This document shows, one piece after another, positions 434 to 7,088 of a stretch of DNA of 7,088 nucleotides. Source of the DNA: a bacterium (GTDB taxonomy: Bacteria > UBP15 > UBA6099 > DSWB01); the NCBI GenBank assembly GCA_020061125.1, contig JAGUYV010000345.1:1-7088 (forward strand), read 5' to 3'. Made by a program: the position numbers and the translations under genes. Below the pieces are notes generated by a model. The model was not told where the DNA came from. It searched no databases and saw nothing but the letters and a program-made list of their open reading frames with translations. Position 1 is the stretch's first letter. Each line of letters opens with the position of its first letter.

Positions 434-922
434 TTACCTGAAATCCGAACTGCATAAATCCGTGATGATGTAACCCGGCGTGCGCGCGCCCGGTTCTACG
501 GACGCGCCTGCGCCATCCGATGGGTGATTGATGATGTCGCTCAAGGTGAATTCATTGAGTGCGTTGCGGACGCGGTCGTTGATGAGCGCGTACACGGGGC
601 GGCATTCGCAGAAATCGGATTTCATGCACGCATCCCGGTCCAGCACGCAGTCCACCACATTGATCGGCCCGAGAGCGGCTTCAATGATGGCGCCCACGCG
701 GATGTCCTCGGGCCTGCGGGTGAGAATGTACCCTCCGCTTTTCCCGGGCACGCCGCGGATCATTAAGTTATTTTTCAGCGAAATAACAATCTGTTCGAGG
801 TAGCGTTTGGAAATGCCCTGGCGGCGGGCGATGTCCTTGAGCTGCAAGGGTTGTTCGCCGCCGTTGCGGGCGATGTCGATCATCAGGCGCAAGGCATAGC
901 GCGCGCGCGTGGAAATCTTCAT
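434..922 (-). CDS. Rrf2-family transcriptional regulator with Fe-S-type cysteine cluster
   Basis: The protein has 162 residues. The N-terminus MKISTRARYALRLMIDIA is the classic opening of Rrf2/IscR/NsrR winged-helix regulators. It is followed by the recognition-helix region (IARRQGISKRYLEQI, about residues 31-45) and the wing (VPGKSGGYIL, 58-67). Cysteines fall at 92, 99, 105 and 107. IscR and NsrR carry three cysteines in this loop, which bind a [2Fe-2S] or [4Fe-4S] cluster, so a redox- or NO-sensing cofactor is likely; the fourth nearby Cys (107) and Cys157 in the tail are extra. The start is set by the conserved N-terminus; an AAGGA lies 11 nt upstream, a rather long spacing. It is the last gene of the operon, 56 nt after the receiver gene, as Rrf2 itself follows Rrf1 in the D. 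vulgaris hmc operon. Inference: it represses or activates this operon according to Fe-S status. The polar tail after residue 130 is not conserved to my eye. Confidence 0.93.
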   Translation of the reverse strand: MKISTRARYALRLMIDIARNGGEQPLQLKDIARRQGISKRYLEQIVISLKNNLMIRGVPGKSGGYILTRRPEDIRVGAIIEAALGPINVVDCVLDRDACMKSDFCECRPVYALINDRVRNALNEFTLSDIINHPSDGAGASVEPGARTPGYIITDLCSSDFR

Positions 923-978: not shown

Positions 979-1380
979 TCAAAGCAACTTGCGTATTGCC
1001 GCGGTCAATTCCTCGGGGTCCACGGGTTTTGCGATGAACGCCTCGGGGGGCGGGAACTGGGAGCGAGTGGACAGGAATTTTTCCGCGTCTCCGGGGCCGC
1101 CCTGGCCTGTGATGCCCGTGACCACAATCACCGGGATGGACGCCAGATCCGGGTCATTCTTGAGTTCGCTGTAAAAACGCACGCCGGACTTGTTGGGCAT
1201 GGACATGTCGAGGGTGATAAGCCCGGGTTTTTCGGCCCTGACGCAGGCCATGGCCTGTTCGCCGTCTCCGGCGGTCTTGCAGTTGAATCCGTGCTCTGCA
1301 AGAAGGCGGCCCAGATATGTGCGCACATCGGCCTCATCGTCCACGATGAGGATGTTTTTCGTGTCTGCCTGTGTCTGCAT
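979..1380 (-). CDS. Single-domain response regulator (receiver only, Rrf1-like)
   Basis: The 133-residue protein is entirely a CheY-like receiver domain with no DNA-binding or enzymatic output domain. The acidic pair is Asp14-Asp15, the phospho-acceptor is Asp58 (TLDMSMP), the switch Thr is Thr88 (VVTG) and the conserved Lys is Lys118 (IAKP). All active-site residues are present. Thr88 to Lys118 spans 30 residues, against 22 in CheY, so the alpha4-beta5 region is enlarged. The same spacing occurs in the receiver fused to the HdrD-like protein encoded upstream. The start is ATG at 1380, with GGGGG 8 nt upstream; the frame stays open further upstream into the kinase gene, but that part is an out-of-frame shadow. 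It lies between the kinase and the rrf2-like gene, the place Rrf1 holds before Rrf2 in the hmc operon. It is likely phosphorylated by the adjacent kinase and acts through protein contacts. Confidence 0.93.
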   Translation of the reverse strand: MQTQADTKNILIVDDEADVRTYLGRLLAEHGFNCKTAGDGEQAMACVRAEKPGLITLDMSMPNKSGVRFYSELKNDPDLASIPVIVVTGITGQGGPGDAEKFLSTRSQFPPPEAFIAKPVDPEELTAAIRKLL

Positions 1381-1451: not shown

Positions 1452-2933
1452 TCAGCCGTCCGCGTCCGGCGCATCGGAGTCCGGGTCCACGGGCAGGCGC
1501 ACGGAGAAGGTCGAGCCTTGTCCGGGCGCGGAATCCACGGTGATGGCGCCTCCGTGCTCGGACGCCACCTTGTGGCACACGAGCAGGCCCAGGCCCGTGC
1601 CGAAGGCGCCCTTGGTGGAAAAGAACATGCGGAACAGCTTGCGGCGCGTGTCGTCGTCCATGCCGATTCCATTGTCCCGCACCCGGATTACGGCCTCGTC
1701 CCCGTCCTGCGAAACGCCGATGTGAACGAAGTGCTTTTTGGCCTCGTCCTCGTCCGAGGCGCAGGCATCCATGGCGTTGGTGATGAGATTGGCGAGCAGA
1801 GAGTGGATGTCCTTGGGATCTGCCAGGATGGTGTCCATGGAAGGATCTATGTCGGTCTCGATGTCGAGGTCGCGCTGCCCGGCGCGTGCGCGGAACAACT
1901 CGGCCACATCCTCGGCCATCTCGGGCAGGGACACGGGCAGGCGGCGCGGCGCGCGATCCTTGGCGCAGTAGAGCATGTCCAGAATCATGCCGGAGATGCG
2001 CTCCACATTGCGCTGCACCATTTCCCATCCGGTCTCGATGTCCTCCCTGGAGTTGTCGCGGAAGCCCAGGTTGGCCACATAGATGCCGCCGCGCAGCCCT
2101 TCGAGCACATTTTTGATGCTGTGCGCGATGCCGCCCACGAGTTGGCCCAGGGACGCGAGCTTGTCCTGCAGGAGCCGGATTTCGGTAATGTCCGTGAGCA
2201 CCTCCATGACCTCGGTGACGCGGCCCTGCGAGTCGCGGATGGGAGACGATGAAACCAGGACCACGACTTCGCTGCCCGTGCTGTCAATGATGATTTCCTC
2301 GCTTGTATGAACGAGGCCGTCCTCAAAGGTTTTGGCCACGGGGCACTGTTCGCATGGCTCGTCGCGGCGCTTGTAGACCTTGTAGCAATAGCCGCCGAGG
2401 TTCTGGCCGAAGTGCTCTTTGAACAGGCCGTTGCTGTCTACAATGCGCAGATCGCGGTCCTGCACGGAGATGAAGCAGGGAACCTGCTCGAAGAGCGTGT
2501 GGAAGCGGCGCAGGCTGTCGTGCAGGCGTTTTTCGAGTTCGCGGTTCACGGTGATGTCGGTGAACAGCTCCATCACGGCCACGATGCGGCCGGAGTTGTC
2601 GCGCAGGGGCTTGGTGTTCACAATCACCTCGCGGGGGAGGCCCCGGCGATCGAAGATGGTTTCCTGGGCCGTGTGCTCGCGGCCGTCCTCGAAGGTGCGC
2701 GCCACCGCGCACTCCGGGCACGGCTCGTTCCGGCCCTTGTAAACCGTGTAGCAGGGTTCGCCCAGGCGCGTGCCGAATTCGTCAATCATGTTCCTGTTGG
2801 CCTCGACGATGCGCAGGTCCGGATCCTGGATGGAGATGCAGCAGGGCACTTCGTCGAACAGGCGCTCGCAGGCCAGATCCTTGATGTCCAGGCGGCGCGC
2901 GCCAGGGCTGCAAGCCAGTGTGTGATCGCTCAT
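1452..2933 (-). CDS. Cytoplasmic PAS-PAS sensor histidine kinase with repeated Cys motif
   Basis: The product has 493 residues and no membrane segment. Two PAS domains (about 20-130 and 142-252) are tandem copies exactly 122 residues apart. Each has VPC, then CYxVYKxRxEPCxxCxVAxTFEDG, then a TDIT end. Cysteines 31, 61, 72 and 75 in copy 1 match 153, 183, 194 and 197 in copy 2, so each domain could bind a metal, heme or Fe-S centre or form a disulfide. The dimerisation/phospho-acceptor part has His271 in GGIAHSIKN; Ser follows the His where Glu or Asp is usual. The ATPase domain has N382/N386 (N box), DNGIGM (420-425, G1), FFSTKG (437-442, F box) and GTGLGL (445-450, G2). The frame is open back to 3029, but that would overlap the previous gene; ATG 2933 has AGGGAGG 5 nt upstream and is preferred. 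Its likely targets are the two receivers encoded on either side. Confidence 0.93.
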   Translation of the reverse strand: MSDHTLACSPGARRLDIKDLACERLFDEVPCCISIQDPDLRIVEANRNMIDEFGTRLGEPCYTVYKGRNEPCPECAVARTFEDGREHTAQETIFDRRGLPREVIVNTKPLRDNSGRIVAVMELFTDITVNRELEKRLHDSLRRFHTLFEQVPCFISVQDRDLRIVDSNGLFKEHFGQNLGGYCYKVYKRRDEPCEQCPVAKTFEDGLVHTSEEIIIDSTGSEVVVLVSSSPIRDSQGRVTEVMEVLTDITEIRLLQDKLASLGQLVGGIAHSIKNVLEGLRGGIYVANLGFRDNSREDIETGWEMVQRNVERISGMILDMLYCAKDRAPRRLPVSLPEMAEDVAELFRARAGQRDLDIETDIDPSMDTILADPKDIHSLLANLITNAMDACASDEDEAKKHFVHIGVSQDGDEAVIRVRDNGIGMDDDTRRKLFRMFFSTKGAFGTGLGLLVCHKVASEHGGAITVDSAPGQGSTFSVRLPVDPDSDAPDADG

Positions 2934-3009: not shown

Positions 3010-4761
3010 CTATACCCCGGCTTTGTCAACCTTCAGAATGCCGCACACCGTGCCGATGAGCTTGTCCGGATCAATGGGCTTTTCGATGAATCCGTCCGGG
3101 GCCGGGATGTCTTTTTCCCGGATGAACCCGTCGAAATCAATCTTGGGCTTGTCCACCTTGGCGTAGCCGGACACGATGACCACGGGCAGGTCTTTGTAGT
3201 TCTCGTCCTTGCGCAGTTCCCAATAGAGTTTTTCGCCGGTCTTGTGAGGCATGATGAGGTCCAGGGACACCAGATCCGGCCTCATGTCGCGGATGGCGCG
3301 CATTCCCTGATTGGCGTCGGGCGCGTCCATGACCGTGGCGCCGTTCTCGGCATAGATTTTGGTGAGGAACAGGCGCACATCGGGTTCGTCGTCTATGACT
3401 AAAACCTTCTTGCCGTAGAGCGCTTTGATGGACTCCATGACCTTGACGGGGCGCGCCGGAACCAGCAGGGCGTTGGCCGTAAGGTTCACGAGCTGCGTAA
3501 CCTGCATGCCGAGGTCGTATTCCTTGATGCAGTCGTAGAGGCCGTCCACGCAGTTGTGGCACGATGTGACCACGGTCTTCGCCCCGGTCTGCTTGAGTTG
3601 CTGGGCCTTGATTTTAGCGGACTTGAGCCTGCGGGGCGCGTACTCGCTCATGCTCATGGCGCCGCCGCCGCCGGTGCAGCAGAAGTTCTCCGCGCGGTTC
3701 GGGTACATTTCACGAAATTCGGACGCCACCATTTTGAGCACCTCGCGCGGCTCCTCGGTCATGCCGCAGCTTCGCGCGAAGTTGCATGAGTCGTGGTAGG
3801 TCACGGGGTCGGAATTGCGGGACTTGTCCACCTTGATGGTGCCGTCCTTGAGCCAGTTCAGAAGTGTGATGACCACGCTTTCCATCTCGAAGCCCACATC
3901 CATGCCTGCCCAGTTCTGGCCTTCGCATCGCGTGGAACGGTAGCCGTGGCCGCACTCGGAGATCACGACTTTTTTCACGCCCAGCCTGTGGGCCGCATCG
4001 TAAAGGCGCTTGGAGCACGCGCCGCCCAGGGCCGGGTCGCCCACGAACAGACCGAAGTTGGTCATGTCCCAGCCCTCGCTGGGCATGGTCCAGTTCACGC
4101 CCGCAAAGTGGAATATTTCGGCGGCGTCGGCAATGGACCGCGGGTCGTACTTGGCCTCGCGCGGATTGATCACATACATGATGTCCGCGCCTACCTTGTC
4201 CACCGGAATTTTTATGGAGGGATCGTTGTGCTTGTTCTGCAGTTCTTCCTCCATCCATTCGAGGGTGTCGAGGTAGTCTTCGCGCAGCACGCCCATCTGG
4301 TTGCCGATTTCCCACTGGTCCTTGGCCACATGGCGCACGCCCTCGGGCATGATGCCGACCGAGTAGAGCAGGTTGCGGGCCATGCCGTTGAATACGGCCA
4401 TGTCCACGCCCATGGGGCACACGATGGAACAGCGCCGGCAGCCCGTGCACTTGCCGAACACCGTGTCCATGAGATCCTCGAGTTCTTCGTCCGTGTACAC
4501 GCTTTTCGCGCCCACCCACCAGGGAACGGCGCGGCCGGTCCAGTCAATGTGCGCCTTGAACAGCTTGCGGATCTTGTCTGCCTTGGCCGCGGGCGCATAG
4601 CTCGGGTCGTCCGGGTTGGCGAGAACATAGTGGCACTGGTCCGTGCACATGCCGCAGTGTACGCACGCCGCCAGGGAAAGCATGATCTGGCGGTTCTTGC
4701 ATTTGGTCTTCATGAGTTCAACGACTTTTTCCGCTCTGGGGGATCGCGTCTTGGTTGGCAT
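3010..4761 (-). CDS. HmcF/HdrD-like Fe-S (CCG-domain) protein fused to a C-terminal receiver domain
   Basis: The product has 583 residues. Two ferredoxin-type [4Fe-4S] sites are visible: C33-x2-C36-x2-C39-x3-C43 and C105-x2-C108-x2-C111-x3-C115. A CCG domain follows: a partial first motif around C270 (SECGHGYRSTRC) and a full second one, C326-x34-C361-C362-x38-C401-x2-C404. This is the pattern that holds the active-site cluster in HdrB/HdrD and occurs in HmcF, TmcB and DsrK. Residues 1 to about 445 match the roughly 460-residue length of HmcF. Residues 451-583 are a complete receiver domain with D457/D458, phospho-acceptor D501, S531 and K561. The start ATG has AAGGAG 6 nt upstream, and the single frame has no break at the junction. 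It lies 39 nt after the cytochrome b gene, its expected membrane partner. Expected role: cytoplasmic electron acceptor/donor of a quinone-linked complex, here perhaps gated by phosphorylation. HmcF, TmcB and DsrK subtypes cannot be separated by eye. Confidence 0.93.
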   Translation of the reverse strand: MPTKTRSPRAEKVVELMKTKCKNRQIMLSLAACVHCGMCTDQCHYVLANPDDPSYAPAAKADKIRKLFKAHIDWTGRAVPWWVGAKSVYTDEELEDLMDTVFGKCTGCRRCSIVCPMGVDMAVFNGMARNLLYSVGIMPEGVRHVAKDQWEIGNQMGVLREDYLDTLEWMEEELQNKHNDPSIKIPVDKVGADIMYVINPREAKYDPRSIADAAEIFHFAGVNWTMPSEGWDMTNFGLFVGDPALGGACSKRLYDAAHRLGVKKVVISECGHGYRSTRCEGQNWAGMDVGFEMESVVITLLNWLKDGTIKVDKSRNSDPVTYHDSCNFARSCGMTEEPREVLKMVASEFREMYPNRAENFCCTGGGGAMSMSEYAPRRLKSAKIKAQQLKQTGAKTVVTSCHNCVDGLYDCIKEYDLGMQVTQLVNLTANALLVPARPVKVMESIKALYGKKVLVIDDEPDVRLFLTKIYAENGATVMDAPDANQGMRAIRDMRPDLVSLDLIMPHKTGEKLYWELRKDENYKDLPVVIVSGYAKVDKPKIDFDGFIREKDIPAPDGFIEKPIDPDKLIGTVCGILKVDKAGV

Positions 4762-4800: not shown

Positions 4801-5556
4801 TCAGGACAGGAAGTCGGCGTTGGCTTCGGACCCGAACTGCTTCATGGGGTACACGCCCCTGTGGCCCAGGGTGCGGCCCAGGTACCAGCGCGAGAACGGG
4901 TAATAAATGTAATGCGATATTTTGCTGAACGGCACATACATGAGGAAGAAGGATGTGATGAAGTAGTAAACCACGACCGGGGTTTCCTGGAGCGCGCCGA
5001 TGGATGACGAGGCCTCAAGCTGGCCCTTGGCCACGGCGAATGCGGGCGCCTGGCCCGCCATGAGGAAGCTGAAAACCAGCCACACGGTGAGCAGCGCCAC
5101 CGAGAAAATGTCGTCCGGGGTGCTGATGAGCCGCATGACGGGAACCGTCACGCGGCGGATGAACCTCAACAGGCCCACCACAGCGGCCGAGGCGAAAACA
5201 ATCTGGAGCGTGAGCACTGCGGCCGAACCGGAGATCAGCACGGGCGCGTATGAAAACACGATGGACATGGCGATGGAGCACGCCACGCCGATGTGAAACA
5301 CGACGAACTCCGCATAAAACATCTTGTGCTTGCGCGTGCTCGGCATTGCCCAGGGCATGGCTACATTGAACAGCGAATACATGGCGCCTCGCTGGCCTGT
5401 GGTGTCCGGGCTTCCTGTGGGCGCCTGGCGGTCCTTGCCTGGCGTATGCAGCAGGATCCACCGGATTTTCAAGGTGTACACCGCGGCCATGAACAGCAAC
5501 AGGATATGCAGTTTTTCTGATGCGAATTCCACAAGCGGACTGATTTCATGGTGCAT
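4801..5556 (-). CDS. HmcE/TmcC/DsrM-like membrane cytochrome b subunit
   Basis: The product has 251 residues, close to HmcE (about 226). Five hydrophobic segments are visible, at about 16-37, 83-103, 111-132, 149-168 and 193-213. Candidate heme b ligands are His17, His88 and His215, the last just after helix 5 in SKISHYIYYPFSRW, a segment very like the end of NarI/DsrM/HmcE-type subunits. The C-terminal tail (about 222-251) should be cytoplasmic and touch the Fe-S partner. Expected role: moving electrons between the quinone pool, or a periplasmic donor, and the HdrD-like protein encoded 39 nt downstream. The start ATG has AGGGAG 8 nt upstream, and that site lies wholly in the 17-nt gap after the macro-domain gene, so translation may be coupled. 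No c-type cytochrome partner is in the window. Which heme count and which electron donor apply is not visible. Confidence 0.88.
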   Translation of the reverse strand: MHHEISPLVEFASEKLHILLLFMAAVYTLKIRWILLHTPGKDRQAPTGSPDTTGQRGAMYSLFNVAMPWAMPSTRKHKMFYAEFVVFHIGVACSIAMSIVFSYAPVLISGSAAVLTLQIVFASAAVVGLLRFIRRVTVPVMRLISTPDDIFSVALLTVWLVFSFLMAGQAPAFAVAKGQLEASSSIGALQETPVVVYYFITSFFLMYVPFSKISHYIYYPFSRWYLGRTLGHRGVYPMKQFGSEANADFLS

Positions 5557-5573: not shown

Positions 5574-6125
5574 TCAGATTTTGGACACGCTGTCCTTGAG
5601 TAGATCGAAGTCGCGGTTGTCAATAGCGCAGATGATGATCTCGCGCAGCTCCGAGCCGGACTGAATGTGCTGTTTGATGGTTTCGGACATAACCTTGCCG
5701 CACAGTGGGGCCGGGACGCCGTAGAACCCGAGGCCCATGGGCGGAAAAGCCAGAGTTTTGCAGCCAAGCTCCTCGGCTTTGGCCAGGGCGGACATCATGC
5801 ACTGTCGCAGTTTGTCCTCGGTTCCGGCCTCCAGGTGCTTGGGGCCGCAGGCGTGAATGATGTGTTTCTGCTTGAGTTCACCTGCGCCGGTGGCTACGGC
5901 TTTGCCCATGGCCACCGTGCCGATGGCGTCGCACTCTTTTTGAATGGCCACTCCGCCGCGGTTCTGGATGGCCGTGCCGTAGCCCGACCCAATCTGCAGA
6001 TCCTGGCGGCAGTAATACACGAAAGCATCAACTTCAAGATCCGTGAGGTCGCCCTTAATCAGGGAGACCGTGGTGTTGCCGGCAGCCTTTCGAACAGGCT
6101 CCAGGGCCAGTGGTGATACGCTCAT
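5574..6125 (-). CDS. Macro-domain (ADP-ribose-binding) protein
   Basis: The 183-residue product is a single macro domain. GDLTDLEVDAFV (25-36) corresponds to the GDIT-x-VDAIV strand, and Asp26 matches the residue that contacts adenine in Af1521. The substrate loop follows at 45-53 (IGSGYGTAI), and the distal phosphate loop is PPMGLGFYG (128-136). The usual NAAN sequence after VDAIV is replaced by YYCR (37-40), so the Asn used by many deacetylases and ADP-ribosyl hydrolases is Arg40 here. The classic GGGG run is reduced to GSG. It should bind ADP-ribose, an O-acyl derivative or a related nucleotide; hydrolase activity is doubtful. The ATG has AGGAGG 6 nt upstream, an excellent ribosome site. 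It is the first gene of the operon and stops 17 nt before the cytochrome b gene. The link with redox signalling is inferred from position only. Confidence 0.88.
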   Translation of the reverse strand: MSVSPLALEPVRKAAGNTTVSLIKGDLTDLEVDAFVYYCRQDLQIGSGYGTAIQNRGGVAIQKECDAIGTVAMGKAVATGAGELKQKHIIHACGPKHLEAGTEDKLRQCMMSALAKAEELGCKTLAFPPMGLGFYGVPAPLCGKVMSETIKQHIQSGSELREIIICAIDNRDFDLLKDSVSKI

Positions 6126-6767: not shown

Positions 6768-7088
6768 ATGAAACTCTCGCTCAAGGTCAAACTCATTCTG
6801 GGATACACGGTCATCATCGGGCTGACGGGCCTGTTTTCCACGGTCATAGGAACCTATCTGATCAGCCGCGGGGTCATGACCCAGGCCCAGGAGAGCGTGC
6901 GCACGGATCTGGGCTTCGCGCGCGAGATGCTGCGCAACCGGCAGGACCAAATCGAAAACACCGTGCGCCTGGCCACCTATCACACGGCGTTCCGCAAGGC
7001 CCTGATGGAAGAGGATCGCGCCGAACTGCAGCGCGCACTCGGAGTGCTGCGCGGGGCGGCGTTCATGCACATGGTGGCCATCACCGAC
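6768..7088 (+). CDS. N-terminus of a membrane-anchored sensor protein (Cache-like; kinase or chemoreceptor), partial
   Basis: ATG at 6768 opens a frame of 107 codons that runs off the window end. Residues 1-7 (MKLSLKV) are basic and residues 8-31 form one hydrophobic segment. A polar helical region follows (TQAQESVRTDLGFAREMLRN, 38-57) and then the start of a mixed extracytoplasmic domain. This is the usual opening of bacterial Cache-type sensors: one membrane helix, a long helix, then the ligand-binding domain. Output (histidine kinase, chemoreceptor or cyclase) lies outside the window, so the class is unknown. The ribosome site is weak: GGGG stands about 11 nt upstream, and an in-frame GTG two codons earlier is another possible start. 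It is transcribed away from the redox operon and shares the intergenic region with it. Confidence 0.72.
   Translation, partial: MKLSLKVKLILGYTVIIGLTGLFSTVIGTYLISRGVMTQAQESVRTDLGFAREMLRNRQDQIENTVRLATYHTAFRKALMEEDRAELQRALGVLRGAAFMHMVAITD

Follow-up and report, generated by a model that had tools for sequence, protein, structure and literature searches.

A receiver domain fused to an HdrD/DsrK-type iron-sulfur oxidoreductase in a gene cluster with apparent ties to the Dsr pathway

Results

We identified an HdrD/DsrK-type Fe-S oxidoreductase that is covalently joined to a C-terminal receiver domain and is encoded in a 7,088-nucleotide stretch of bacterial DNA (hereafter the window, meaning the whole stretch that was analyzed). 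Comparative sequence evidence points to a fusion cluster that tracks the Dsr pathway and links it to signalling, and its carriers would almost always be sulfur-compound respirers. The reading that we favor, with a probability of roughly 0.5, is that the protein belongs to a quinone- and DsrC-linked, DsrMK-like module that would be coupled to an on-board phosphorelay and act as a redox or sulfur sensor.

A conserved fusion in a single frame

The features of the fusion gene are as follows.
3010..4761, minus strand: HdrD/DsrK-type Fe-S oxidoreductase with a C-terminal receiver domain, 583 aa (open frame and Pfam)
4633..4665, minus strand: first [4Fe-4S] motif, C33xxC36xxC39xxxC43 (invariant in 47 orthologs; common to DsrK and TmcB-like proteins)
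4417..4449, minus strand: second [4Fe-4S] motif, C105xxC108xxC111xxxC115 (invariant in 47 orthologs)
3925..3954, minus strand: CGHGYRSTRC stretch, in which C270 is universal and C279 is found only in the fused clade, from the alignment
3550..3804, minus strand: CCG domain, residues 320-404, with C326/C361/C362/C401/C404 for a non-cubane-type cluster and the clade-specific C332 (Pfam CCG)
3421..3456, minus strand: poorly conserved linker that joins the redox part to the receiver, residues 436-447 (24% mean pairwise identity, variable length; pLDDT below 50 at 438-444)
3028..3420, minus strand: receiver domain, residues 448-578, with D457, D458, D501, S531 and K561 (Pfam, alignment, tree and model)

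The frame runs uninterrupted from 4761 to 3010 over 583 codons, and its product matches Fer4_8 (residues 30-119), CCG (320-404) and Response_reg (453-569), all above the Pfam gathering cut-offs. A previous reading of this DNA, made from the letters alone (the sequence-only reading), had described two [4Fe-4S] sites, one CCG site and a phosphotransfer-competent receiver in this frame; the Pfam matches and the invariance of the residues in 47 aligned orthologs bear this out.

A fusion of this kind could be an artefact or non-functional, a frameshift or assembly error having merged two genes, and a sequencing error near 3412-3438 had been named beforehand as the result that would undo the claim. 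However, 80 loci from a GTDB genome scan, all in other assemblies, match nearly the full query with the junction included, and roughly 90 of the sequences sampled, spread over about a dozen phyla, read as fused HdrD-receiver proteins. The junction error is thereby ruled out. The MAG labels of the matching loci include Acidobacteria, Zixibacteria, Planctomycetota, Poribacteria, Calditrichaeota, Abyssobacteria, Deltaproteobacteria/Syntrophaceae, Gemmatimonadota, Ignavibacteria/Kapaibacterium, Elusimicrobia, Riflebacteria, LCP-89 and others. With the same junction in independent assemblies from many phyla and with invariant catalytic residues, the probability that the fusion is an artefact is negligible.

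The redox part and its clade-specific cysteines

The two 4Fe-4S motifs and the five-Cys CCG domain, the latter with C326/C361/C362/C401/C404 invariant in the 47 orthologs, place the redox part in the HdrD/CCG-type superfamily, with Fer4_8 and CCG above their gathering scores. None of the three nearest curated NCBIfam identities could be assigned: the scores were 342.6 bits against a cut-off of 750 for HmcF (NF045711), 321.4 against 735 for TmcB (NF045724) and 264.7 against 400 for DsrK (NF045796). The proposal that the redox part is specifically HmcF therefore fails at 343 versus 750 bits, and the window also lacks a cytochrome c or NrfD-like subunit. The broader parallel to the hmc operon stands insofar as a receiver gene and an Rrf2 gene lie nearby, but the comparative evidence ties the system to the Dsr (sulfite reductase/DsrC) pathway instead. 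In a Foldseek search, the best solved match to the redox part was Mycobacterium smegmatis EtfD (E 4.9e-12, probability 1.00, TM-score only 0.51 by query length), which agrees with a CCG Fe-S oxidoreductase fold; a sequence search for a solved DsrK structure found none.

Two cysteines that adjoin the cluster ligands distinguish the fused proteins. C279 is present in 92 of 94 fused proteins, 0 of 12 unfused orthologs and 0 of 9 DsrK proteins, and C332 in 93 of 94 fused and 0 of 12 unfused proteins and in none of the DsrK proteins. Both are missing in the basal fused protein L130 and partly in L119. Because L130 is fused without them, C279 and C332 are not required for the fusion as such.

The gene cluster

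The neighbors of the fusion in the window are listed below; the counts refer to loci whose contig is long enough.
5574..6125, minus strand: 183-aa macrodomain protein whose gene opens the conserved core (Pfam Macro and alignment; 76/76 loci)
4801..5556, minus strand: cytochrome-b-like membrane anchor, a weak HmcE/TmcC relative with four hydropathy peaks and conserved H88 and H215 (matches below cut-offs; syntenic in 79/79 loci)
1452..2933, minus strand: histidine kinase with two PAS domains and without a predicted membrane segment; it carries C61/C72/C75, C183/C194/C197 and the phospho-acceptor candidate H271 (67/70 loci)
979..1380, minus strand: response regulator with a single domain, which belongs to another lineage than the fused receiver (Pfam/NCBIfam and tree; 53/67 loci)
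434..922, minus strand: Rrf2-family transcriptional regulator (Pfam/NCBIfam; near a minority of loci, 22)

Read 5′ to 3′ on the same strand, the order is macrodomain, anchor, fusion, kinase, single receiver and Rrf2. Since the intergenic gaps are below about 80 bases and the strand is shared, the cluster is likely one operon. The macrodomain protein, which matches Macro at 83.4 bits (cut-off 22), is the most constant neighbor of the fusion, yet it has YYAR/YYCR in place of the Asn-rich motif that is usual in hydrolytic macrodomains. Of 73 kinase sequences, 71-72 keep C61/C72/C75 and C183/C194/C197, and 71 keep H271; each PAS domain carries a C-x10-C-x2-C pattern, a possible metal or redox site. 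Positions 6768-7088 of the window cover the first part of a divergent gene that the contig end truncates; its product has a hydrophobic N-terminal segment and no Pfam match. Elsewhere, L091:2190-3023 encodes a protein in which a degenerate receiver is attached to an HTH_17/MerR-like DNA-binding domain, and relatives of it lie near about 20 loci.

Association with the Dsr pathway

Taking genomes as they stand, uncorrected for relatedness and most of them incomplete MAGs (as in all DsrA counts here), we found that 43 of the 50 carriers have DsrA (TIGR02064), as against none of 14 controls. Genome incompleteness possibly accounts for the seven carriers that lack it. Among seven genomes of the window's phylum, the two fusion carriers are exactly the two genomes with DsrA. 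Across 396 Acidobacteriota, DsrA occurs in all 12 fused carriers (eleven identified by coverage, plus G592) versus 20 of 384 others (p = 9e-15), and none of the 8 genomes that hold a close but unfused ortholog has it. The class around Syntrophus contributed 155 genomes; here DsrA is present in 9 of the 11 that carry the gene, fused or not, and in 31 of the other 144 (p = 9e-5). Since three unfused carriers in this class have DsrA too, the clear-cut match between fusion and DsrA in Acidobacteriota does not extend to all groups.

The examined flanks of about 7 kb contain dsr genes at 26 of 81 loci, and some loci sit inside dsr clusters, e.g., dsrA-B-N-L-C-macro-cytb-fusion. The window's own genome carries dsrA-B-N-C on another contig, and it encodes a separate, true DsrK (704 bits). 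Near the unfused Acidobacteriota orthologs, a dsrC gene with both C-terminal cysteines was found in 8 of 8 loci, often directly downstream, which supports DsrC-like proteins as putative ancestral partners. Other DsrC relatives were also seen: L114:8235-9566, which directly adjoins an unfused CytB-HdrD pair, encodes a protein of 443 aa that ends in a DsrC domain (345-443), and MAGs of Gemmatimonadota and Elusimicrobia have several divergent DsrC-like genes close to the fusion cluster (L051:2797-5703 and L077:8793-11395).

The receiver and its linker

The receiver scored 54.8 bits against the Response_reg cut-off of 30.2 and has the acidic pair, phospho-acceptor Asp, Ser/Thr and Lys of its family. 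D457, D458, D501 and K561 are invariant in the 47 aligned orthologs, and position 531 is Ser or Thr. By these residues the fused receiver is predicted to be phosphorylation-competent, and the earlier assignment of D501 as the phospho-acceptor holds. The best NCBIfam model for fused and free receivers alike is the DVU0259 family, with the cut-off missed. In L069:7001-9154, a further receiver match (8780-9154) follows the fusion directly and in frame; tandem receivers may occur.

An AlphaFold model of the fusion had a pLDDT of 81 overall and about 92 in the receiver, the best solved matches of which were CheY/PhoB-like receivers, with low confidence at linker residues 438-444. Among the aligned orthologs, mean pairwise identity falls from 77% for the redox part to 57% for the receiver and 24% for the linker, the length of which varies between 20 and 52 residues over the span that was counted. 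An internal start that would yield the receiver as a protein of its own is unlikely, because the linker is so poorly conserved and just 10 of 47 proteins have a Met in it.

Receivers usually control the domain to which they are joined. A phospho-gated enzyme would be in line with this rule: the fusion would be a quinone:DsrC (or other disulfide) oxidoreductase, and the adjacent kinase would switch or tune its electron transfer by phosphorylating the receiver. Such gating was the main idea of the sequence-only reading, which also allowed for the cluster state acting on the receiver. The invariance of all Fe-S/CCG ligands and receiver catalytic residues and the adjacency of dsrC favor such a phospho-gated enzyme as well. 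However, a linker of such variable length, low identity and low model confidence is unlike rigid allosteric coupling, and the window's genome already has a canonical DsrK. We regard this explanation as somewhat unlikely, although it is the strongest of the alternatives.

Origin of the fusion and the two receiver lineages

In the trees, the HdrD parts of the fused proteins form one supported clade beside the unfused clade, with the exception of L130, a divergent fused protein on a long branch below both clades, the genome of which has DsrA. Its position could reflect one fusion with later loss or a misplaced long branch; both are possible. The receiver-less HdrD of L086 lies inside the fused clade, where secondary loss is the likely cause. 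The fused receivers form one clade apart from the free receivers. The expectation that the fused partners are the same as neighboring separate genes elsewhere was contradicted, as receivers beside unfused orthologs fall in the operon's other receiver lineage. Split-gene (Rosetta-stone) support was likewise discarded: L111, L113 and L086 do have a free receiver close to an unfused HdrD, but those receivers group with the operon-receiver lineage.

The second receiver in the same cluster, the maintenance of two receiver lineages side by side and the flexible, variable linker would suit a tether or phosphate sink, in which the receiver merely holds the kinase at the membrane-bound redox module or takes phosphoryl groups away from the free regulator and does not itself change electron transfer. 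Notwithstanding, this explanation leaves the clade-specific Cys pair unaccounted for, and pure docking needs no invariant phosphotransfer residues. We consider it improbable.

Discussion

Overall, we propose a putative mechanism for the favored sensor. In a DsrMK-related membrane module of two subunits, used in organisms that have the Dsr pathway, the HdrD-type fusion would be the cytoplasmic Fe-S subunit and the cytochrome-b-like protein the anchor. DsrMK is a membrane module for the reduction of DsrC trisulfide (PMC6018796, PMC10504309); on the basis of this published function and the dsrC adjacency, the CCG site may be where the quinone pool and a DsrC-like thiol/disulfide partner exchange electrons. 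The Cys-rich PAS kinase would phosphorylate both the tethered and the free receiver, the output of the circuit would be set by the respiratory chain's redox or sulfur state, and information would flow mainly from the redox module to signalling. The outputs probably differ by lineage (Rrf2, HTH-receiver or other regulators). Control of hmc expression by rrf1 and rrf2, which are separate genes (PMC10924467), provides a precedent for receiver control of such complexes.

The conservation of the fusion and its cluster, the dsr link and the intact cofactor and phosphotransfer residues are consistent with the sensor reading. A sensor or coupling role is favored over phospho-gating because the neighbors are mostly signalling genes, the PAS kinase is Cys-rich, a canonical DsrK is encoded separately and the linker is loose. 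The clade-specific pair C279/C332 and the variable linker would fit a sensing or tethering role. Against this, all cofactor ligands are kept, so the protein may simply be an enzyme under control; only two anchor His are conserved, compared with the two hemes reported to be bound by DsrM (PMC10504309); and seven of 50 carriers lack DsrA, possibly through genome incompleteness. More tentatively, and with rather less than even odds, we speculate that the cytochrome b/Fe-S complex is a membrane sensor of quinone and DsrC (sulfur) status that feeds the phosphorelay, with the macrodomain adding an adenine-nucleotide or NAD-metabolite input, as a dedicated Dsr-pathway signalling system in about a dozen phyla.

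In the openly accessible literature (subscription literature was outside the search), we found no description of an HmcF/TmcB/DsrK-type protein with a fused receiver, of this gene cluster or of a macrodomain in dsr clusters, nor a match via DVU0259. The dsrM2/dsrK2 paralogs of peatland Acidobacteria are mentioned without a receiver and may or may not include the window-type gene (PMC6018796). The fusion and its cluster are thus apparently undescribed, in line with the sequence-only reading, which had called the tethered receiver unusual and perhaps a control mode not yet described. The sensing and control of Dsr-based sulfur respiration, which can run in either direction, are poorly understood. 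A DsrMK-like subunit with a joined receiver, kept across many phyla and almost confined to DsrA genomes, is a testable candidate for coupling respiratory redox or sulfur state to signalling; its cluster is a new marker gene cluster and raises the question of the role of the ever-present macrodomain.

Comparison with known systems

Among CCG-type membrane Fe-S oxidoreductases, M. smegmatis EtfD is the nearest solved fold of the redox part, but the identity is 18%, the window has no ETF genes and EtfD has no receiver match. In the Tmc complex (TmcB/TmcC) with its DVU0259-type response regulators, TmcB is the second-best model of the redox part and DVU0259 the best model of the receiver; however, both cut-offs are missed, the window has no cytochrome c subunit and its receiver is fused. 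Hmc (HmcE/HmcF) with Rrf1/Rrf2 resembles the window in that HmcF is the best NCBIfam model and a receiver and an Rrf2 gene are close by, whereas of the HmcA-E set (16-haem cytochrome, ferredoxin, quinol oxidase) the window genes lack HmcA-D and include only a weak HmcE-like anchor, the receiver is fused and the HmcF cut-off is missed by half. In contrast to DsrMK/DsrMKJOP, the quinone-linked DsrC-trisulfide reductase, the window protein has the receiver and Cys279/Cys332, lacks the Cys that DsrK has at 398, scores below the DsrK cut-off, falls in a separate clade and has macrodomain, kinase and receiver neighbors. Nevertheless, the two systems share a cytochrome-b-type partner with an Fe-S/CCG subunit, the same Cys framework, the pathway and the association with dsrC.
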